A stretch of 64,000 bases of DNA from assembly GCA_019358985.1 (NCBI GenBank), contig JAHHIJ010000030.1, positions 1-64,000 on the forward strand, in the 5' to 3' direction. The translations under genes and the position numbers were made by a program. The notes under the pieces are model-generated. The model had not been told where the DNA came from and did no database searches. It saw only the letters and a list, made by a program, of their open reading frames with translations. Numbering within the stretch: the first letter of the stretch is position 1; every line of letters starts with the position of its first letter. Of this stretch, positions 11,232-63,987 are shown in pieces. The stretch is from Tolypothrix brevis GSE-NOS-MK-07-07A (GTDB lineage Bacteria > Cyanobacteriota > Cyanobacteriia > Cyanobacteriales > Nostocaceae).

Positions 11232-12923
11232 ATGACGCAAGTAGAATTTCCACCGAATACTCCACACGAAGACAATAAAAATCAATTGGTGAGTGCTCAT
11301 ACGATCCATCCTGAAGCGTGGAAATGGTACGACTACTTCACTTTTAATGTTGACCATAAAGTTATTGGCATCCAATATCTAGTTACAGCATTTGTCTTCT
11401 ATCTCATCGGTGGATTGATGGCTGTTGTGATGCGTGTAGAATTAGCAACACCAGATGCAGACCTCATTGACCCTAACCTGTACAATGCTTTCATGACGAA
11501 TCATGGAACAATCATGATTTTTCTGTGGATTGTACCGAGTGCAATTGGGGGATTTGGTAATTATCTGGTGCCGTTGATGATTGGCGCCAGAGATATGGCT
11601 TTTCCGAAGTTGAATGCGATCGCCTTTTGGTTGAACCCAGTAGCAGGTGCATTAATTCTCGGTAGTTTCTTTTTTGGTGGTTCGCAATCTGGCTGGACTG
11701 CTTACCCACCATTAAGTTTAGTTACCGCTAACACCGCACAATCGATGTGGATTTTAGCGATCGTTTTGGTGGGAACTTCCTCAATTTTGGGTTCGGTGAA
11801 CTTTGTCATCACCATCTTGAAGATGAAAGTCCCTAGCATGAAATGGGATCAAGTTCCCTTATTTTGTTGGGCAACTTTAGCAACCGCTATTTTAGCGCTT
11901 CTTTCGACACCTGTGTTAGCAGCTGGTTTGGTGCTGTTGTTGTTTGACATCAACTTTGGCACTTCCTTCTTTAAACCAGATGCTGGCGGTAATGTGGTAA
12001 TTTACCAACATTTGTTCTGGTTTTATTCGCATCCGGCAGTTTATTTGATGATTCTGCCCATCTTCGGCATCATGTCCGAAGTAATACCAGTACACGCTCG
12101 CAAACCGATTTTTGGTTATAAAGCGATCGCCTATTCCAGCGTAGCCATCTGCGTTGTCGGTTTGTTCGTCTGGGTACACCACATGTTTACCAGCGGTACA
12201 CCAGGTTGGATGCGGATGTTCTTCACCATCTCCACCCTCATCGTGGCTGTTCCCACAGGCATCAAGATTTTCGGTTGGGTAGCAACCCTTTGGGGTGGTA
12301 AAATTCGCTTCACCAGCGCCATGCTATTCGCCATTGGCTTGCTATCCATGTTTGTCATGGGCGGCTTAAGCGGTGTAACAATGGGAACAGCCCCCTTTGA
12401 TATTCACGTACACGACACATATTATGTAGTGGCGCACTTCCACTATGTATTATTTGGCGGCTCCGTCTTCGGTATTTACGCGGGCATTTACCATTGGTTC
12501 CCGAAAATGACCGGACGGATGATGAATGAAACTTGGGGTCGCGTTCACTTCGTCCTCACCTTCATTGGCACTAATCTGACATTCCTGCCGATGCACGAGT
12601 TAGGTTTGCAAGGAATGCCTCGACGAGTTGCCATGTACGATCCACAATTTATCAGCCTCAATCAGCTTTGTACCGTTGGTTCTTTTGTGTTGGCAGCTTC
12701 AGTGATTCCCTTCACCATCAACGTCATTTGGAGTTGGATTGCTGGACAAAAAGCCGGTGATAATCCTTGGCAAGCTTTGACTTTAGAATGGACAACCAGT
12801 TCACCACCAATAGTAGAAAACTGGGAAGTATTGCCCGTTGTCACTCACGGTCCCTACGACTACGGCATCAATAATCATAGCGCTGAATTGCCGCCATCTA
12901 CTGCGACCGAAGCCAGTGCTTAG
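11232..12923 (+). CDS. coxA: cytochrome c oxidase subunit I
   Basis: The start at 11232 (MTQVEFPPN) is preceded by AAAGGA, so the upstream TTG is not used. The 563-residue, twelve-helix protein has the family signatures. These include WxWxPxxIGGFGNYLVPLMIG near residue 105, HPAVYLMILPIFG (CuB and Tyr region), HHMFTSG, and the heme ligands in HDTYYVVAHFHYVL. It reduces oxygen at the heme-CuB centre. It is 81 bases downstream of coxB and followed by coxC. Confidence 0.96.
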   Translation: MTQVEFPPNTPHEDNKNQLVSAHTIHPEAWKWYDYFTFNVDHKVIGIQYLVTAFVFYLIGGLMAVVMRVELATPDADLIDPNLYNAFMTNHGTIMIFLWIVPSAIGGFGNYLVPLMIGARDMAFPKLNAIAFWLNPVAGALILGSFFFGGSQSGWTAYPPLSLVTANTAQSMWILAIVLVGTSSILGSVNFVITILKMKVPSMKWDQVPLFCWATLATAILALLSTPVLAAGLVLLLFDINFGTSFFKPDAGGNVVIYQHLFWFYSHPAVYLMILPIFGIMSEVIPVHARKPIFGYKAIAYSSVAICVVGLFVWVHHMFTSGTPGWMRMFFTISTLIVAVPTGIKIFGWVATLWGGKIRFTSAMLFAIGLLSMFVMGGLSGVTMGTAPFDIHVHDTYYVVAHFHYVLFGGSVFGIYAGIYHWFPKMTGRMMNETWGRVHFVLTFIGTNLTFLPMHELGLQGMPRRVAMYDPQFISLNQLCTVGSFVLAASVIPFTINVIWSWIAGQKAGDNPWQALTLEWTTSSPPIVENWEVLPVVTHGPYDYGINNHSAELPPSTATEASA

Positions 12924-25171: not shown

Positions 25172-25420
25172 CTAACCCATCGCTTCTGCTAACTCTTCCA
25201 ATAACTTTAATGTTTCTGCCGCTTCTTTTTCATTAATTCGATTCATGGCAAAGCCAACATGAAGCAAGACCCAATCTCCAACACAAGATTCGGCGGGATG
25301 CTGTTCGTTAACGATGCAAGCAATATTAATTTGACGTTTTACACCACCAACGTTAACAATAGCTAGTTTTTGATTTATGTCGGTTATTTCTGTAATTTGA
25401 CCGGGAATTCCTAAACACAT
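25172..25420 (-). CDS. hypC: hydrogenase assembly chaperone HypC
   Basis: This 82-residue protein begins with the invariant MCLGIPGQI, with Cys2 for iron and hydrogenase binding, and has the LLHVGFAMNRINEKEA motif near residues 51-66. It forms the complex with HypD and chaperones the hydrogenase large-subunit precursor. Only one hypC is present in the window, as expected for HupL. Confidence 0.97.
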   Translation of the reverse strand: MCLGIPGQITEITDINQKLAIVNVGGVKRQINIACIVNEQHPAESCVGDWVLLHVGFAMNRINEKEAAETLKLLEELAEAMG

Positions 25421-47802: not shown

Positions 47803-48062
47803 CTAACGAATTAAGTCGTAAGAAATATCAGTTTTAGAAGGAATGTTGGTGTTTTGATCGATGTCCTCGAACACGGTGTTAACAACCCAACTGAGCAAGT
47901 TGATCACACCTTGATAACCGACGGTGGCGTAACGGTGCATGTGGTGACGATCCATAATTGGATAGCCGATGCGAACCAGGGGAACTTTGCAATCGCGCCA
48001 CAGGTACTTACCATAGGAGTTACCGATGAGCAAGTCTACGGGTTCGGTGAACAGCAAAGAAC
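47803..48062 (-). CDS. nifK: nifK, 3' exon-like part downstream of the element
   Basis: The frame encodes the last 84 residues of the MoFe protein beta subunit: LLFTEPVDLLIGNSYGKYLWRD (after the junction), then GYPIMDRHHMHRYATVGYQG and the C-terminal SYDLIR. There is no native start; it begins at the GTTC junction (48059-48062). Joined to the 5' part (52248-53527) it gives a full NifK of about 511 residues. It is expressed only after the intervening DNA is removed. Confidence 0.93.
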
Positions 48063-48113
48063 CAATGCGCTCACTATCAGGTAATATTTATATATTGCTG
48101 TGAGGTGCGGTAT

Positions 48114-49682
48114 ATGGAAGTTTGGGCTTATGCGAGGGTATCGACTGACGAACAAGCGGAGGATGAAGGAGCGTTAATTAAACAGATGCGTCGTTTGCGG
48201 AGTGCTGGAGCCACGAAAATATATTACGATGTCGAGAGTCGTACTAGCGATAAGCGCAAAGGTCTTTTGCAATTAATTGAGGATGTGGATGCGATACCTC
48301 CGGTAAGCTCTGCGATCGCATTTGGTAAAGTCTCAAAGTTGTTATTTATCCGCATCGACCGTTTAACATCGTCATCAATCATGTTTTATCGATTGATGGA
48401 TGCATTAAAGAAAAAGGGTATCCAACCGACAGCAATTGATGAGCCATTTGAGATGTCAAGTATTGGTGGAGAACTAACAATTGATGTGCGGTTAGCAGCA
48501 GCAAAATATGAGGTGAAAATGTTAGCGATGCGTGTAAAAAAGGAACGCGAAACTCGCAAGACGAATAAAAAGCCCCACTGGAACGCGCCATTAGGATACA
48601 TAACAGATGGACAGAAGTACGTCAAAGATAACCGTCCCTGCGTTTGCTTAATTGCGAATAAGTCAGAAATGAATGTTTCCCAATTGGCGCGATTTGTGTT
48701 TGATATTTTTTTTAGTGTGGGTACAGTGTCAGAGACTGCCAGACAATTGCATGATATTTTTGGGATTCAGGCTCAGGCAGTTTCCAAATCAAAAAATAAC
48801 CGAAATAATGTACTTGGGGAAATAGAAGAAATAGCGATTGAAAATATTAATAAAACTCGTGGTTCTGGACTAAATCTGCGTTATCCGCACACGGGATTGA
48901 AATGGTCAATTTCTGGCTTGCGATCGCAGCTAGTAAATCCCATCTATGCAGGGGGAACAGCATATGATACAGTGCATTATAGTGGCGGGCATCGCAAGCC
49001 CTTTGATGAGTGGCAAGTTGCCTGGGAAACTCACGATGAAATTATTATTACCCGTGAGGAACACGAGCGGGTAAAAACGATGATTCGCGAAAATCGCAAT
49101 AATCGCTGGGCAAATGAACAAAAATATACCAACGTATTTGCTAACATAGTTAAATGCGCTCATTGTGGGGCTGCTTACAGTCGTCAATCGAAAAAATTGG
49201 TAAAACGTACCGGATTAATTCGTCATCACTACCAATGCAGTTTTTACCGCACTGGAGCTTGCGACAACAAGCGGATGATTTCTAATGATGAACTAGAAAA
49301 GCAAGTTATCGAATGGTTGATACGGGAAGCTGAAAGGTTAGCAGCATCTTTTGAGCAAGAAGTTCAAGTGACAGAAGAACCCCCAGAAGTTAAAACTCTG
49401 CGAGCATCTTTGAATATCCTGGATGGTTTACCATCAAATCCAGCGATTGAAAAAGCTAAAGAAGACATTTTGAACCAGATTGCGGATGCGATCGCTACCA
49501 CAAACGAAACTTCCAAGCAATACCTAATTGCCAAAGAACGGATTGTTTTGGCATTTTCAAACCAGAGGTATTGGCAAAGTTTAGAATCGCAAGATAAACA
49601 AGCTTTACTTAAAGGGTGTATAAGAAAAATAACGGTAGATGGCAACAAAGTCATTGAGGTAAAATTACTGCATTTATATTAG
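48114..49682 (+). CDS. xisF-like: XisF-like large serine recombinase
   Basis: The start at 48114 (MEVWAYARVSTDEQAED) is chosen for its distance to TGAGG and for the family; a GTG 9 bases upstream is also possible. The 522-residue protein has the N-terminal resolvase domain with catalytic Ser10 in ARVST. Next come a recombinase domain (about 160-290) and a zinc ribbon (CAHCG, then CSFYRTGAC, near 340-375). A C-terminal coiled part follows. It resembles XisF, which excises the fdxN element in Anabaena. It lies 52 bases inside the element edge and should catalyse nifK excision. XisH/XisI-type accessory genes are not seen. Confidence 0.92.
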   Translation: MEVWAYARVSTDEQAEDEGALIKQMRRLRSAGATKIYYDVESRTSDKRKGLLQLIEDVDAIPPVSSAIAFGKVSKLLFIRIDRLTSSSIMFYRLMDALKKKGIQPTAIDEPFEMSSIGGELTIDVRLAAAKYEVKMLAMRVKKERETRKTNKKPHWNAPLGYITDGQKYVKDNRPCVCLIANKSEMNVSQLARFVFDIFFSVGTVSETARQLHDIFGIQAQAVSKSKNNRNNVLGEIEEIAIENINKTRGSGLNLRYPHTGLKWSISGLRSQLVNPIYAGGTAYDTVHYSGGHRKPFDEWQVAWETHDEIIITREEHERVKTMIRENRNNRWANEQKYTNVFANIVKCAHCGAAYSRQSKKLVKRTGLIRHHYQCSFYRTGACDNKRMISNDELEKQVIEWLIREAERLAASFEQEVQVTEEPPEVKTLRASLNILDGLPSNPAIEKAKEDILNQIADAIATTNETSKQYLIAKERIVLAFSNQRYWQSLESQDKQALLKGCIRKITVDGNKVIEVKLLHLY

Positions 49683-49724
49683 GCATAGAAAGTATAAATT
49701 AATTATGCGTTGCCCGAAACCCTT

Positions 49725-49753
49725 GTAGAGACGTAGCAATGCTACGTCTCTTT
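49725..49753. repeat. dispersed palindrome, family II, inside the nifK element
   Basis: Arms GTAGAGACGT and ACGTCTC surround AGCAATGCT; the right arm is shortened. It lies just after the recombinase gene. A second copy (52163-52191) is near the other end of the same element. Confidence 0.75.
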
Positions 49754-49772
49754 TCTGGAGAAGTCTATTTGC

Positions 49773-49916
49773 TTAGGCAGCTTTGGACTTGCGGGGTTTA
49801 GGTTTGTCATGTTTTTGCTGTTGTATCGGATCTTGTTGTTTTTGTAGCAGTGCCTCGCGTTTTTCAAACTCAATTACAGTACGAGCAACTAATTCTGCTA
49901 GGGTTTCACGTTTCAT
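49773..49916 (-). CDS. 47-residue basic helical ORF in the nifK element
   Basis: On the minus strand ATG at 49916 opens a frame of 47 codons ending at 49773. It reads MKRETLAELVARTVIEFEKREALL, then QQQKHDKPKPRKSKAA. The protein would be a charged helix with a basic Pro/Lys tail. It is opposite the recombinase gene and close to it. It is too short for routine calling. It could be a helper of excision, but there is no homology known to me. Confidence 0.45.
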   Translation of the reverse strand: MKRETLAELVARTVIEFEKREALLQKQQDPIQQQKHDKPKPRKSKAA

Positions 49917-50143
49917 AGTTGATGTTTATCGCTTCTTTGACGATAACTGCGATGTCAAAAACTTCTGTTAGCTATGAGCTTTTTAGATTGCTACATAATA
50001 TTTAGCGTGACTTTGTGTTAAAATGAAAGTGTATTTAATACATTCAAAAAGTTGTCCTGCGTGCAGAAAGCGTTTAAAATCACACAAATTCCTACACACA
50101 ATCAACAAGTCTTAACCAAAAATAGAAATTGAAGCTAAAAATA

Positions 50144-50689
50144 ATGAAAGACGATTTGGAAAAAATGTTAAAACACAATCATATAGATTGGTCTAATCTT
50201 AGTTATTTACAAAGAATTATCTTGATAACTGATGGAACCTTGACAGACATATTAGAAGCGTATTTATTAGAAGATATTCAAGTCATAAAAATATCAGAGA
50301 AAGTAGAAGTTACTAGCAAAGATATTCCGATATTAGAGTTAGAAGCAGGAAGCGAAGTCATTGAGAGAAAAATATTTTTACAAGGAAAAAATAGTAGTAA
50401 AAATTTTCTTTATGCAGAATCAAAAATTGTTCTTGGAAGACTAGATGAAGATTTAAAAAATGGTTTATTAAAATCTCAAATACCGATAGGTCATCTTTGG
50501 TCACAATTCCGATTGGAAACTTTTAAAGAGATTATTGAATCGGGCAAAGAACCAGTTAATGAACTGTCTGCTTATTTTATAGATACGGAACCAAAAGACC
50601 AATTACTTTTTCGTACTTACCGCGTTTTTTCTAATCGAAAACCTATCATGATGATTACAGAAAAATTTCCCCAAAGCTACTTCATGTGA
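50144..50689 (+). CDS. chorismate lyase-like (DUF98) protein, cargo of the nifK element
   Basis: The ATG at 50144 (MKDDLEKMLKHN) is the likely start; a TTG 15 bases upstream is less likely. The 181-residue protein has the family pattern LSYLQRIILITDGTLTDILEAYL, GSEVIERKIFLQG, YAESKIVLGRLDEDLKNGLLKS and IGHLW. Members convert chorismate to 4-hydroxybenzoate and pyruvate or act as related enzymes. A metabolic gene is unexpected in an excision element. Low GC compared with nif genes suggests foreign origin. Confidence 0.8.
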   Translation: MKDDLEKMLKHNHIDWSNLSYLQRIILITDGTLTDILEAYLLEDIQVIKISEKVEVTSKDIPILELEAGSEVIERKIFLQGKNSSKNFLYAESKIVLGRLDEDLKNGLLKSQIPIGHLWSQFRLETFKEIIESGKEPVNELSAYFIDTEPKDQLLFRTYRVFSNRKPIMMITEKFPQSYFM

Positions 50690-51067
50690 AATTTTCATTC
50701 CTTAGTCAATCAAAAAGCTTGGATATAAGTGCCCGCTAATTTGTTTTTTGGACTAATTTTAAATAGTTTAATTGTAATTTTGTTGTTTTCTAAATTAGAG
50801 ATGAATGAATACGTGGCAAAATTGATAGCAATTATTTGTGTTCCCCTCTGGAATTTTTCGCTTAACTGGAAGCTAAACTAGCAAATAACGGAGACATAAG
50901 TATATTTGATAAATAATATTTAGATTAACAGATATTCTTATAATAAAAGACTCCGGATACGGATTTTTGAAATGTCGATATCATATATGTACGCCTTAAT
51001 TAATAGAGGCGAATTTATCCACCATAATCTGCTACATTTCAACCGATCACAAATTGAGTACAAGACA
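50690..51067. other. AT-rich gap inside the nifK element
   Basis: No gene is seen in these 378 bases, apart from a possible N-terminal extension of the next gene that starts at 50972. Confidence 0.5.
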
Positions 51068-51934
51068 ATGACTACCTCTGAAATAACTACTGTTGAACAC
51101 AAAAACCAGAGAGGAAATTCCTCTTTGGGAGAAAACTCATCCTCTTCGTCAGGTCAAAAAATCTTATTTACCTTGAAGGCGCTTGAGTATTTATTACTGG
51201 CTGCTATTATCAGTTCTGGGATAATTATTATTATGTTACCAGATAATAAAAAGGCTGTAATTGGTGGAGCAGTTTCTCTGACTATTTCGATTTTTTTGTT
51301 ACTCATCAACAAACAAGCATTTGAAGAGTCTAAGAATGCGGCTAACCAATATGGTATTATCCAAAAAGCTGAAATATATACTTCTCTGTTGAGTAATAAC
51401 AATTCCTTGGAGAAAAATACGTTCATTCCAGCAAGAGCAAAAGCTTTACAGTATTGCCAAGATATGATTTACGATTATAAAAAAACTCGCAATCTATCGA
51501 GAAACCTTTACTATGTTTTGCAAATTGCAACTGTTATTTTATCAGGAGTCACACCAATTTTAGTTTTGGTAGACAAATTGGAAGCGGGACAAGCTTGGCT
51601 GAAGTGGCTCCCCGTAATCTGTCCGGCTATTGCTTCTATAGTTGCGAGTATAGTTACCTCTTTTCCTTTTCAGAAGAATTCGCTTGCTGCTAACACAGCC
51701 ATTGAATTGTTAGAGGCTGAACAAGAGAAGTTTATATTAGGAGTAACTCCGTCTTACCGTTGCTATGATGTGTCTGACGAAACTGAACGACAACAGAAGG
51801 CAAGTCAGGCAATAGAACAGTTTATTGTTCAAGTGAATAACATTCATCTCCAGCAACTGCAACCAACGGAAGAGAAGCAGTCACAGAAGACAGAATCATC
51901 TGCATCTAACGAGTCTAAATCTGAGCAAAGTTAA
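51068..51934 (+). CDS. DUF4231-type membrane protein, cargo of the nifK element
   Basis: The start at 51068 (MTTSEITTVEHKNQRG) is preferred; the frame is open from 50972. The 288-residue protein has two close hydrophobic pairs: LEYLLLAAIISSGIIIIMLP with KAVIGGAVSLTISIFLLLIN, and YVLQIATVILSGVTPILVLV with LPVICPAIASIVASIVTSFPF. The middle has YCQDMIYDYKKTRNLSR. This two-by-two membrane helix pattern is that of DUF4231/SLATT-type proteins, some of which are effectors in conflict systems. Function is not established. Confidence 0.7.
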   Translation: MTTSEITTVEHKNQRGNSSLGENSSSSSGQKILFTLKALEYLLLAAIISSGIIIIMLPDNKKAVIGGAVSLTISIFLLLINKQAFEESKNAANQYGIIQKAEIYTSLLSNNNSLEKNTFIPARAKALQYCQDMIYDYKKTRNLSRNLYYVLQIATVILSGVTPILVLVDKLEAGQAWLKWLPVICPAIASIVASIVTSFPFQKNSLAANTAIELLEAEQEKFILGVTPSYRCYDVSDETERQQKASQAIEQFIVQVNNIHLQQLQPTEEKQSQKTESSASNESKSEQS

Positions 51935-52162
51935 CACTTTGCCCTTGGTCAGATTTCCGACAACTTGTGCGAATATACAAGAGCAATTAGACATATAGGA
52001 TTCCTATTTGATTTTTGAACAAACACGTAGGGTGTGTTAGCGGCGAGAGTACGGCACTTTTTCTAGGGGGAGGAGTGCGTTACGACGTTCTGTCTAACGC
52101 ACCCTACAATACTTAAATTTTTTCATAAATCAAACCGGATTCCTATAGGAGTGAAAATGAAT

Positions 52163-52191
52163 GTAGAGACGTAGCAGTGCTACGTCTCTTT
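52163..52191. repeat. dispersed palindrome, family II, inside the nifK element
   Basis: Arms GTAGAGACGT and ACGTCTCTT flank AGCAGTGCT, 57 bases from the junction with nifK. A further inverted repeat (TAGGGTGTGTTAG with CTAACGCACCCTA, about 52028-52108) lies just before it. Confidence 0.8.
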
Positions 52192-52247
52192 CTTGGTGAA
52201 AATGGACGTTTTCTACATTTATTTAACCTGATAGCAAACACATGCCT

Positions 52248-53527
52248 GAACGCATGTGCCACAAATCTTTACCAGCCCACAGAGTAGCACTATTACCGTT
52301 AGCGTAAGAAGCTAGCAACTCTTTGAGTTCTTTATCAAAGATTTCATTGCTGTTGTGGACAAGGATATGCACGGGTTCAGCACCCATTTCCAGCATGAAG
52401 CCGACTACGCTGTAAACTAAATCTGGATCGCCGTAGATAGCGAAGCGCTTGCCGTGTAACCATGAATGGGAGTCAGTCATCGCATCAACTGCGCGACCAC
52501 GTTCGATTTCTAGTTCTTTGGGAATCGCTTTACCAGTTAGTTCGCTGAGTTTCATCAAAAACTCATCAGTACCTTTGATACCCCAAGGACGAGAAACAAC
52601 AGTTGGTTGCTTCCACTCTTTCTCAATGTATTCGCGGGTTTTGGCGGTAGAGTGGGCTTGCAGGGCGATTGTAGCTTTACCATTAATTGAGTCTGCTGCA
52701 TCTTCCAGCTTTGTACCACCTGGGTACATATCAAATTCACCTGTGTTGGGTGAATCCAGATAATCGCTGTTATCTGCTAAGATGGTGTAATCGATGCCCA
52801 TCATTTCGCAAATCCGCTTGATTTCCCGGTTGTTACCAACGTAGGTATCAAAGCCAGGAATAAAGTTGATTTTGCCATTGCTGGTTTCTTTCTTATGACC
52901 TGCGGTCAAGTTAGAAAGAATACCCTTCATCATGTTGTCGTAGCCAGTGATGTGGGAACCAACAAAGCTAGGAGTGTGAGCGTAAGGTACTGGAAATTCT
53001 TGAGGAACTGAACCAGAACTCTTAGAGGTGTTGATGAAAGCTTGCAAGTCATCACCGATAACTTCTGCCATACAGGTGGTGCAGACAGCGATCATCTTTG
53101 GCTTGTAGAGTTGGTAGGAGTTTGCCAAGCCATCAATCATGTTTTGCAGACCACCAAACACCGCTGCGTCTTCAGTCATTGAAGAACTGACGCCAGAAAA
53201 CGGCTCTTTGTAGTGACGGGTTAAGTGGGTGCGGAAGTAAGCTACGCAACCTTGAGAACCTTGGACAAAAGGTAGAGTGCCTTCAAAACCAACAGCAGCA
53301 AAGATTGCGCCCAATGGTTGGCAACCTTTAGCGGGGTTGACGGTTAATGCTTCACGGGCGAAGTTCTTTTCACGGTAGTCCCAACCCTTCGTCCATTCTG
53401 CAACACGCGCAACTTCTTCGGCGCTGTGTCCGTTTTCAAATTGCTTTTTGTTTTCAAATAACTGTTGGTATTCCGGTTGGTGGAATAGTTCGACGTGATC
53501 TTGAATATTTTCCGGATTCTGAGGCAT
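52248..53527 (-). CDS. nifK: nifK, 5' part upstream of the element
   Basis: The part encodes residues 1-427 of the MoFe protein beta subunit. The P-cluster Cys are in KGCQPLGA (near residue 69), GSQGCVAYF (near 94) and CTTCMAEVIGDD (near 152). At the junction after WHMRS the frame runs on 7 codons into the element (GMCLLSG) and stops at 52223. Without excision a shortened protein lacking the last 84 residues would be made. It starts 177 bases after the nifD stop. Confidence 0.95.
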
Positions 53528-53973: not shown

Positions 53974-55392
53974 ATGCATAACCAGGATTTTGACAAGTAT
54001 CAGCAAGCTTTTGCAGACTTGGAGCCATTTTCATCTACCGACGGCAGTTTTATTGGCTCCAGTCTGCAAACACAGCAACAACAAGAGCATATGAGAACAA
54101 AAGTACTATTAGAGTTAGAGAAAGTTAATCAACGTTTAAAGTCTGCAAAGGCAAAGGTGACAATCAGGGAATCAAATGGAAGTCTGCAATTACGAGCGAC
54201 GTTACCTATTAAACCGGGAGATAAAGACACAAACGGCACTGGAAGAAAACAATACAATATCAGTTTGAATATTCCTGCTAATTTCGATGGATTAAAAACG
54301 GCTGAGGAAGAAGCATACGAATTAGGAAAGTTAATTGCAAGACATACTTTTGAATGGAATGATAAATATTTAGGAAATGAAGCACTTAAAAAAGACTTTA
54401 AAACAATAGGAGAGTTATTAGAAGAATTTGAAAATGAATATTTCAAAACTCATAAACGCACCACAAAAAGCGAACATACTTTTTTTTATTATTTTTCTCG
54501 AACTAAGCGATTCACTAATCCTCAAGATTTTGCTACTCCAGAAAATCTGATAAATTCAATTGAAAAAATTGATAAGGAATGGGCTAGATATAATGCGATG
54601 AGAGCTATTTCGGCGTTTTGTATAACATTCAATATCGAGATTGATTTATCTAAATATTCTAAAATGCCAGAGAATAATTCCCGCAATATACCAAGTGATG
54701 TGGAAATAGCCGCTGGAATTATCAAGTTTGCAGATTATCTGAATAATAGAGGTAATCAAGTTAATCCAGATGTAAAAGATAGTTGGCAACTTTGGCGATG
54801 GACTTATGGAATGTTAGCAACATTTGGTTTACGTCCACGGGAACTTTTTATTAATCCTGATATCGATTGGTGGTTAAGCGAAGAAAATGCAGATATGACA
54901 TGGAAGGTAGATAAAGAGTGTAAAACTGGAGAAAGACAAGCTCTCCCTTTACATAAAGAATGGATTGTAGATTTTGATTTAAGAAATCCTAAATATTTAG
55001 AAATGCTGGCAACAACAATTAGTAAAAAAGATAAAAGTAATCATGCAGAAATCACAGCATTAACACAACGAGTTAGTTGGTGGTTTCGGAAAATAGGATT
55101 GGATTTTAAGCCGTATGATTTACGTCATGCATGGGCAATTAGAGCGCATGTTTTAGGAATACCAATCAAAGCAGCGGCTGATAATTTGGGACATAGTGTG
55201 CAAGTTCATACCCAAACTTATCAGCGTTGGTTCTCCTTGGATATGCGGAAGTTAGCGATTAATCAAGCTTTGAGTAAGAGGGATGAAGTTGAGTTGATGA
55301 GGGAGGAGAATACTAAGTTGAGGATGGAAAATGAGAAGTTGAAAATGGAGATTGAGAAGTTAAAAATGGAGATGGTTTATAAGCGAAGTTAA
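53974..55392 (+). CDS. xisA: XisA-type tyrosine recombinase
   Basis: This 472-residue site-specific recombinase is 118 bases inside the element edge. The C-terminal catalytic part shows R287 (GLRPREL), Y381 and R384 in YDLRHAWAI, LGHSVQVHTQTY and the nucleophile Y416. Tyr replaces the usual His in the box, as described for XisA and XisC. A C-terminal coiled coil (about 435-470, repeats of K-M-E-x-E-K-L) follows. It should excise the nifD element between the GGATTACTCCG repeats during heterocyst development. Confidence 0.95.
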   Translation: MHNQDFDKYQQAFADLEPFSSTDGSFIGSSLQTQQQQEHMRTKVLLELEKVNQRLKSAKAKVTIRESNGSLQLRATLPIKPGDKDTNGTGRKQYNISLNIPANFDGLKTAEEEAYELGKLIARHTFEWNDKYLGNEALKKDFKTIGELLEEFENEYFKTHKRTTKSEHTFFYYFSRTKRFTNPQDFATPENLINSIEKIDKEWARYNAMRAISAFCITFNIEIDLSKYSKMPENNSRNIPSDVEIAAGIIKFADYLNNRGNQVNPDVKDSWQLWRWTYGMLATFGLRPRELFINPDIDWWLSEENADMTWKVDKECKTGERQALPLHKEWIVDFDLRNPKYLEMLATTISKKDKSNHAEITALTQRVSWWFRKIGLDFKPYDLRHAWAIRAHVLGIPIKAAADNLGHSVQVHTQTYQRWFSLDMRKLAINQALSKRDEVELMREENTKLRMENEKLKMEIEKLKMEMVYKRS

Positions 55393-59004: not shown

Positions 59005-60012
59005 ATGCCAAGATATGATAAAGAACCAGTATTTCGTCAAGTATCTGGCGAAATACCTCTTCCTCAAAATGAGAGAGGCAAGAATCAAAAAGAGTTGGAT
59101 GAATCGAACAAATCACCAGAATCAACAATAGATTTCACACCTTATTTGAGAGAACCAAAATATACTCTCGAAGATGTTATACTGCCGCAAAAGAGCAAAA
59201 ATCAAATCGAATCAACCATAGTTGAACTCCAATATCAAGACTTAATTTACAAAGAGTGGGGAATGGGTGAAAAACACAAATTGGATAAAGCCCTTTCTAT
59301 CAACTTATCTGGACCACCCGGTACAGGAAAAACACTTACTGCTGAAGCATTTGCTCATGCAGTGAAGAAGAAAATTTTAGTTGTTCCCTACCAACAGCTT
59401 GAATCCAAGTACGTTGGTGAAACTCCTAAAAATATTGCTAAAGCCTTTGAGTTTGCTGCTAGTCATAATGCAGTTTTATTCTTTGATGAAGCTGATTCAT
59501 TTTTAGGTAAACGTCTAGAAAATGTTAGTCAGTCAACTGATACAGCAGTTAATTTAACTCGGAGTGTCATGATATTACAGCTTTCGGCATACGAAGGAAT
59601 TGTAATATTTGCAACTAATTTAATCCAGAACTATGACCCGGCTTTTATTAGCAGAATTCGCTGGAAAATTCAGATTGATTTACCTGATAAAGATGCAAGA
59701 GCTAAAATTTGGCAAGTTCAAATTCCTCGGCAACTTCCTTTAGCTGAATCAGTAGATTTTGTCGAACTTGCATCCAAATTTGATCAAGTATCAGGTAGAG
59801 ATATTAAAAATGCAGTTTTAAGGGCTGTTGTTTCTGCTGCCAAAGGAGACGAAACTACAGAGCAAAAGCAAGTTACACAATCTCATTTTATAGAGGCAAT
59901 AACTGACATAATAGCAGCTAATCAGGCATCTGTAAAACCAGAATTTAAAGTAACTCCTGTCAATGGTCAAGTAGACTTACCTCCAGAGAGGCTGAACGCG
60001 ATCGCTAATTAA
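59005..60012 (+). CDS. classical AAA ATPase, fourth gene of the AAA cassette
   Basis: This 335-residue ATPase has Walker A GPPGTGKT at 103-111, Walker B FFDEADSF with D161-E162, and an SRH-like part FATNLIQNYDPAFISRIRWKI with Arg fingers. It is related to the CDC48/Vps4-like bacterial AAA group. The N-terminal 60 residues are polar and linker-like. GGAGAAATTGC precedes the start. It is the only recognised protein of the cassette and is probably its motor. Confidence 0.85.
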   Translation: MPRYDKEPVFRQVSGEIPLPQNERGKNQKELDESNKSPESTIDFTPYLREPKYTLEDVILPQKSKNQIESTIVELQYQDLIYKEWGMGEKHKLDKALSINLSGPPGTGKTLTAEAFAHAVKKKILVVPYQQLESKYVGETPKNIAKAFEFAASHNAVLFFDEADSFLGKRLENVSQSTDTAVNLTRSVMILQLSAYEGIVIFATNLIQNYDPAFISRIRWKIQIDLPDKDARAKIWQVQIPRQLPLAESVDFVELASKFDQVSGRDIKNAVLRAVVSAAKGDETTEQKQVTQSHFIEAITDIIAANQASVKPEFKVTPVNGQVDLPPERLNAIAN

Positions 60013-63837: not shown

Positions 63838-63913
63838 GTTTGATTAGCTCAGTTGGTAGAGCGATCGACTCATAATCGATTAGTCACAGGTTCGAGTCTT
63901 GTATCAAACCCCA
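63838..63913 (+). tRNA. tRNA with CAU anticodon (Met or Ile2)
   Basis: The 76 bases form a full cloverleaf. The acceptor is GTTTGAT/ATCAAAC, the D stem GCTC/GAGC, and the anticodon stem ATCGA/TCGAT with loop CTCATAA. The T stem is ACAGG/CTTGT with loop TTCGAGT. CCA is encoded (63911-63913). The anticodon is CAU; the loop and the stem next to it (CGACTCATAATCG) match tRNA-Ile2, whose C is changed to lysidine, but elongator Met cannot be excluded. It is inside the nifD element. Confidence 0.88.
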
Positions 63914-63987
63914 GAAAGTTAGCTCACTGGTAGAGCGGTTGGCTCATAACCAATTGGTTGTAGGTTCGATTCCTATACTTTCACCCA
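63913..63987 (+). tRNA. second tRNA with CAU anticodon, abutting the first
   Basis: The acceptor is AGAAAGT/ACTTTCA with a mismatched first pair (A-A). The D stem is GCTC/GAGC, the anticodon stem GTTGG/CCAAT with loop CTCATAA, and the T stem GTAGG/CCTAT. CCA is encoded at 63985-63987. Its first base is the last base of the preceding tRNA's CCA, so there is no spacer. A mismatch at 1-72 recalls initiator tRNA but other initiator features are missing. It could be decayed or belong to a tRNA array that continues past the window. Confidence 0.75.

Follow-up and report, generated by a model that had tools for sequence, protein, structure and literature searches.

Eight elements that interrupt nifK have been described, in two position variants, with Calothrix PCC 7103 and C. 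desertica PCC 7102 among the strains named (Hilton, Meeks and Zehr 2016, PMC4874684). In that survey elements of up to nearly 1 Mb are reported, the fdxN element of Nostoc PCC 7120 is said to hold xisH and xisI, which are needed for excision, in addition to the gene for the recombinase XisF, and whether interruption elements are useful, harmful or selfish is treated as an open question. The attP sites of phage serine integrases are pseudo-palindromic around the crossover dinucleotide (PMC3783163), and a synthetic E. coli circuit that limits the growth of integrase-differentiated cells has been presented with reference to heterocysts (PMC9649629). Here we describe a nifK element in a 64,000-nucleotide stretch of Tolypothrix brevis GSE-NOS-MK-07-07A (contig JAHHIJ010000030.1, positions 1 to 64,000; hereafter the window). 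It is an element of a known kind at a known place, and it is probably a heterocyst excision element that has come to harbour the one chorismate pyruvate-lyase gene detected in its genome.

The nifK gene lies on the minus strand in two pieces, separated by an insert within one contig. The 5′ part (52247..53527, residues 1-427) ends in WHMRS and matches PF00148 at profile positions 1-336 (351 bits), and the 3′ part (47803..48057, residues 428-511 and the stop) starts with LLFTEPVD and matches positions 338-398; the two sets of profile positions are consecutive. Joined, the pieces form 1,536 nt that read in frame through 511 residues to a single terminal stop. The congener G070 carries a full-length, uninterrupted nifK that reads ATGCGTTCTTTGCTG across the insertion point and provides a natural empty site. 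A first-pass annotation, made from the letters of the window alone, had placed the break after WHMRS and the resumption at LLFTEPVD, had predicted an in-frame repair to about 511 residues, and had pointed to uninterrupted relatives and to a possible second intact nifK as checks. Coordinates, profile matches, the length of the join and the G070 gene all agree with it, and the search of the assembly (genome G000; 6.52 Mb, 74 contigs, 99.75% complete) gave no further NifK match beyond the two split pieces. A third row of that search, at 30% identity, is another nitrogenase-family gene and was set aside.

As excised, the element would measure 4,189 bp from core to core (48061..52249), and it was rightly annotated as small: in the 23 genomes whose two nifK parts share a contig and an orientation, the parts lie 4.2 to 116 kb apart, and T. 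brevis has the shortest distance. Near one end lies the gene for a large serine recombinase of 525 residues (48105..49682, plus strand) that has Resolvase, Recombinase and zinc-ribbon domains and no internal stop. Its assignment to the XisF type was borne out by a score of 506.2 bits (cut-off 375) against NCBIfam NF041201, the equivalog model for the fdxN element excision recombinase XisF. The first-pass annotation gave its distance from the edge as 52 bases; measured from the GTTC shared by the two junctions, the gene starts after 42 bases (GTG, 48105) or 51 bases (next ATG). The element resembles the nifK elements of the survey in gene and recombinase type, and the genomes of PCC 7103 and PCC 7102 have the same insertion codon and recombinases 73-74% identical to that of T. 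brevis. It shares with the fdxN element a recombinase that passes the XisF model and differs from it in that xisH and xisI are not among the identified cargo proteins; contig C54 holds no XisH-family match, the 13 in the genome (12 over the cut-off) lying elsewhere, and XisI was not searched for. The three domains are also those of phage large serine integrases such as the Listeria A118/LI integrase, as outlined in the source cited above, whereas the T. brevis element sits in a developmental gene and is without recognised phage genes. Phage relatives of the recombinase are distant (13 records, 20.7-34.5% identity) and all 154 plasmid records are below 60% identity, and a phage or plasmid origin was rejected on that ground. 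At gathering thresholds, Rfam gave two tRNAs in the window, neither inside the element. A 25-base palindromic repeat, AGAGACGTAGCAATGCTACGTCTCT (96% complementary), occurs in two copies within the element (49727-49751 and 52165-52189).

Two further genes were identified in the element, both on the plus strand. One (50972..51934) predicts a DUF4231/SLATT membrane protein (NCBIfam SLATT_1, 90 bits, cut-off 41), and the other (50144..50689) predicts a divergent chorismate pyruvate-lyase-like protein of 181 residues. The first-pass annotation had taken the cargo as incidental, yet it is the most unusual part of the element. The lyase matches PF01947 at 65 bits (cut-off 22), the family that includes the cyanobacterial chorismate pyruvate-lyase with UbiC function, but reaches only 37 bits against the equivalog model for the latter, NF037993 (cut-off 175). 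It is the one PF01947 match in the genome, so that on this family the element carries the only chorismate pyruvate-lyase gene detected; a search of the genome with NF037993 likewise returned the cargo copy alone, far below the cut-off. Where BLAST aligned divergent and standard lyases (G193, G207) identity was about 22%, and the T. brevis protein gave no BLAST hit to standard proteins at 1e-3. An Arg and a Glu, which we take to be the catalytic residues of UbiC, are kept in an alignment of six divergent and two standard lyases. Among solved structures the closest is 2nwi, annotated as a 'hypothetical protein' (E 1.9e-13).

Among 39 genomes (T. brevis and its relatives), the standard lyase gene is present in 34 at 196-220 bits. 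Only the divergent type (63-67 bits) was found in T. brevis, its congener G021, G194 and G207, the last a single-contig genome, both types occur in G001 and G193, and neither in G124, which is 54% complete. Every one of the 37 genomes that are at least 90% complete and at most 5% contaminated has one type or the other. That all four losses of the standard gene fall among the six carriers of the divergent type has a probability of about 2e-4 (15/66045, calculated by hand assuming independence), a figure that overstates the case because T. brevis and G021 are congeners. At the syntenic place of the standard gene, next to a gene that from its sequence is presumably a biotin carboxylase, T. brevis has contiguous DNA without a lyase gene and, on this synteny, the standard chromosomal gene has been deleted. 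In G021 a stretch matching the first 18 codons remains, G124 also lacks the gene at this locus, and the junctions in the three genomes are all different. The standard gene is whole in two other congeners, G070, which has no nifK element, and G096, which has one and in which the single PF01947 match is the standard gene.

Plastoquinone is an essential electron carrier, and UbiC stands first among the enzymes of its synthesis (PMC7133116). The element therefore appears to house the sole copy of a gene for plastoquinone synthesis, and we lean slightly towards the cargo lyase being the sole source of 4-hydroxybenzoate. Whether vegetative growth depends on it we regard as evenly poised. The best-surviving alternative is that this is an ordinary nifK element with incidental cargo, the lyase serving another product or none and the plastoquinone ring being supplied by another enzyme, and we give it a substantial chance, somewhat short of even. 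Divergent lyase genes lie among peptide-synthetase genes in G193 and G194, and in G193 also beside a DAHP-synthase gene, which indicates that this type can serve secondary metabolism; no such peptide-synthetase setting is apparent in G001 or G207. Between T. brevis and G021 the ratio of non-synonymous to synonymous substitution rates (dN/dS) is 0.24 for the lyase and 0.22 for the SLATT gene; the lyase is constrained, but no more than its neighbour. The lyase search was confined to PF01947 and the NF037993 model, and UbiC (PF04345) and other routes fell outside it. Against incidental cargo stand the presence of one lyase type or the other in all of the 37 near-complete genomes, the divergent type as the only one on the single contig of G207, and the loss of the standard gene in T. 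brevis and G021, which carry the lyase as cargo, when it is kept in the non-carriers G070 and G096. The T. brevis element, moreover, lacks the peptide-synthetase parts found in G021 but has kept its lyase.

Those parts suggest where the lyase came from. The nifK element of G021, about 27 kb, contains peptide-synthetase domain fragments, a carbamoyltransferase gene, methyltransferase and glycosyltransferase genes, transporters, and the divergent lyase gene (C366:36906-37358, with nifK parts at 25256 and 52196); the nifK element of G096 includes a peptide synthetase of 2,088 residues. The T. brevis and G021 elements align in four blocks at 91-96% identity (recombinase side, lyase, SLATT gene and far edge), between which G021 has stretches of 9.6, 0.85 and 12.7 kb without counterpart in T. 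brevis. The two lyases are 88% identical, compared with 52-68% between lineages. The lyase would have come in as part of an earlier and larger nifK element that also held a peptide-synthetase-type cluster, and the T. brevis element would have shrunk from it with the lyase retained; growth of the element in G021, instead of shrinkage in T. brevis, is a possible alternative.

The occurrence of the recombinase was surveyed in 192 family genomes taken from a larger group. Matches at E ≤ 1e-30 were found in 74, and in 38 the best copy is 68-100% identical, the next best being 53%. Both nifK ends were recovered from 35 of the 38, all broken at the same codon, and these include Hassallia byssoidea VB512170, Plectonema radiosum NIES-515, Calothrix PCC 7103 and Dulcicalothrix desertica PCC 7102; G124 and G097 gave the 3′ part only and G154 the 5′ part only, and these three were left out of the end comparison. 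The two ends from each of the 35 genomes were aligned on the nifK codon frame. At the first and second positions of the Ser427 codon (columns -3 and -2) the ends agree in all 35: 27 genomes have TC at both and 8 have AG. From column -30 to column 30 there are six more columns with agreement in 35/35, each of them a single invariant letter, so the pair at -3 and -2 is alone in being shared without exception and yet variable between genomes. On the recombinase tree (34 genomes, without G104, in which the recombinase was not mapped) the core label changes 5 times, at least 4 of these changes being forced by well-supported branches.

The exact crossover is thus very likely the two bases TC of the Ser427 codon (48059..48060 at the recombinase-gene end and 52248..52249 at the far end, both minus strand). 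The four-base core GTTC proposed in the first-pass annotation is indeed present at both junctions as a direct repeat, and in G021 the ends share as many as nine bases, ATGCGGTCT. As the unit exchanged it is very improbable, since the ends agree at column -5 in 33 of 35 genomes and at -4 in 31 (differing in 2 and 4), and at columns -1 and 0 in 18 each (17 differ at -1). At the distal end the third codon base is free, making an Arg codon in some genomes (AGA in G023, G122 and G095; AGG in G109), and at the proximal end the codon before Ser is not bound to Arg (AGT in 18, GGT in 9, plus others); because both vary freely, the exchange is placed between them. The Ser codon in uninterrupted nifK genes is also of both kinds. 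An AG core was considered as a mark of interrupted genes when 30 uninterrupted nifK were all TCN, and the idea was dropped when 40 more distant genes were added and AGY reached 13 of 70 (57 TCN).

The inner edges of the element form a dyad that is also centred on TC. The half-sites lie at 48061..48088 (plus strand, ACCAATGCGCTCACTATCAGGTAAT...) and 52220..52247 (minus strand, AGGCATGTGTTTGCTATCAGGTTAA...), and joining them gives the predicted circle junction ATTACCTGATAGTGAGCGCATTGGT-TC-AGGCATGTGTTTGCTATCAGGTTAA. Over the 35 genomes this dyad has a mean of 15.3/22 matches, compared with 3.4-8.7 at 16 other centres, and it is significant at p<0.01 in 34 of them when one half is shuffled (T. brevis, 14/21, p 5e-5). 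Starting at the core and going outward, the half-sites have a consensus of approximately nCTAATGYGYTnnCTATCARG, roughly 21 bases, of which CTATCAGG is the outer part. The motif CTATCAGGT occurs once per strand in the window, at 48074 (+) and 52226 (-), at the two edges of the element; it is inverted there as first described, but stands 13 bases from TC on either side, not 11 and 13, and is part of the longer half-site. This pseudo-palindrome around the crossover dinucleotide is the arrangement reported for attP of the phage serine integrases. Against the empty nifK site, the inner motif gives its best match, a modest one, when in register (3.8-4.4 of 9). A separate XisF-type insert in nifD of the same genome, with an 18-base repeat shared by its ends, has an inner dyad centred on the TC of a Ser codon (15/25, p 3e-4, the centre having been chosen after looking); TC was the best centre at three of four window widths and tied at the fourth.

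The genome sequences themselves show the split gene and its natural empty site, the pairing of the ends, a core of two bases, the palindrome and the family of the recombinase, and excision in heterocysts is highly probable. By the route usual for heterocyst elements, the recombinase would act on the two hybrid ends late in heterocyst differentiation, perhaps with a helper for directionality, and would cut both at the TC of the Ser427 codon. The nifK gene would be rejoined exactly, and the 4,189 bp would leave as a circle with a near-palindromic site resembling attP at its junction. The element would stay in place in vegetative cells, where it may supply the lyase and thus 4-hydroxybenzoate for plastoquinone. 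Heterocysts do not divide. The excised circle would not be expected to replicate, which matters if a dividing cell lost it but not in a heterocyst, where it may keep being expressed. That the element is instead a decayed fossil that no longer excises, with nifK dead in this strain, is most improbable: the far inner half-site is off consensus beside the core (GGC instead of CTA) and nifD is broken by two further inserts, but both nifK parts are open and strongly constrained (dN/dS 0.08 for the 5′ part), as is the recombinase (0.10), which has no stop, and core, frame and dyad are all intact.

Several observations weigh against the reading of an excisable element with an indispensable cargo. Neither an excised junction nor a circle junction was found in 39 genome assemblies; with up to 2 mismatches the circle-junction pattern gave 14 matches in 11 of them, four being the distal nifK end and the others lying at unrelated places, and the exact pattern had no match in viral contigs. 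No helper gene was found in the element. The outer motif lacks the shifted match in the empty site that is expected from the Listeria integrase model, and none of four half-site pairs peaks at the inward shift of 5 bases; this is not decisive because the shift was established for the Listeria family. No second PF01947 lyase is present in T. brevis, but UbiC (PF04345) was not searched for. The dN/dS of the lyase is the highest of the four genes compared, and its location in a nifK element in T. brevis and G021 counts as one evolutionary case, not two, because the genomes are congeners. A single-sequence fold of the cargo lyase had a mean predicted local distance difference test (pLDDT) score of 40 and was not used.

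Further variation was seen around nifK in the relatives. Separate full-length nifK genes are also present in G097, G133, G140 and G108. The gene is broken near residue 95 in G083, G117, G147, G154 and G139 (L123, L124), and again near residue 155 in G139, where it is in four pieces; the third break position may be new, beyond the two variants that the survey lists. In Westiellopsis prolifica (L018; G122:C1:3435-3704, 11438-12727) the two nifK parts have opposite orientations on one contig, which may reflect mis-assembly, to which seven such cases were ascribed by Hilton (PMC4874684), with inversion as the other possibility. Scytonematopsis contorta (G022; L014, L050) has the recombinase gene inverted relative to the nifK 3′ part when compared with other genomes, and in G124 (L011; G124:C196) the start of the recombinase gene is set apart from the nifK 3′ part by about 1.6 kb of additional DNA, with the end site intact. 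Beside the nifK element of G003, G133 and G088 (L189, L190, L192), a frame resembling the start of nifE, named by eye, stops after about 195-208 residues and adjoins a second serine-recombinase-like gene of 468 residues.

The T. brevis nifD gene (C32:284601-285200 (+), C54:72759-73343 (-)) is apparently broken by further inserts: its N-terminal piece is on a different contig and a middle piece falls outside the window. There are xis genes at 53974-55392 (+) in the window and at C54:73884 (+), and the junction with the 18-base repeat stands beside the XisF-type recombinase. About 0.4 kb past the start of nifK lies the start of a tyrosine-recombinase-like gene. Two tRNA genes with CAT anticodons lie back to back in the apparent nifD insert (63838-63985), and an AAA ATPase in the presumed insert (59005-60012) reaches 117 bits with IetA models for the Ietas defence system; Hilton (PMC4874684) mentions an ATPase gene that is confined to elements.

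In open-access full text, subscription papers being outside reach, we found no report of a two-base core with paired switching, of a circle palindrome for an XisF-type nif element, or of a core metabolic gene whose sole copy lies in an interruption element. The presence of core genes within elements may nevertheless not be unique, because elements of nearly 1 Mb must hold many genes. With a core of two bases and half-sites of about 21 bases, the XisF-type reaction can be tested directly in vitro and junction reads can be searched for exactly. It is an even question whether a nitrogen-fixation element has here made itself indispensable, by holding, once the chromosomal gene had disappeared, the sole gene for the step that opens plastoquinone synthesis. 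Heterocysts would be able to excise the element, and dividing cells would be unable to lose it because the only gene for that step would lie within it; if so, excision would also be a metabolic one-way step, open to non-dividing heterocysts alone. A small element with an essential-looking metabolic gene offers a testable reason for its retention and, if this is true, would explain for one lineage why such elements persist.

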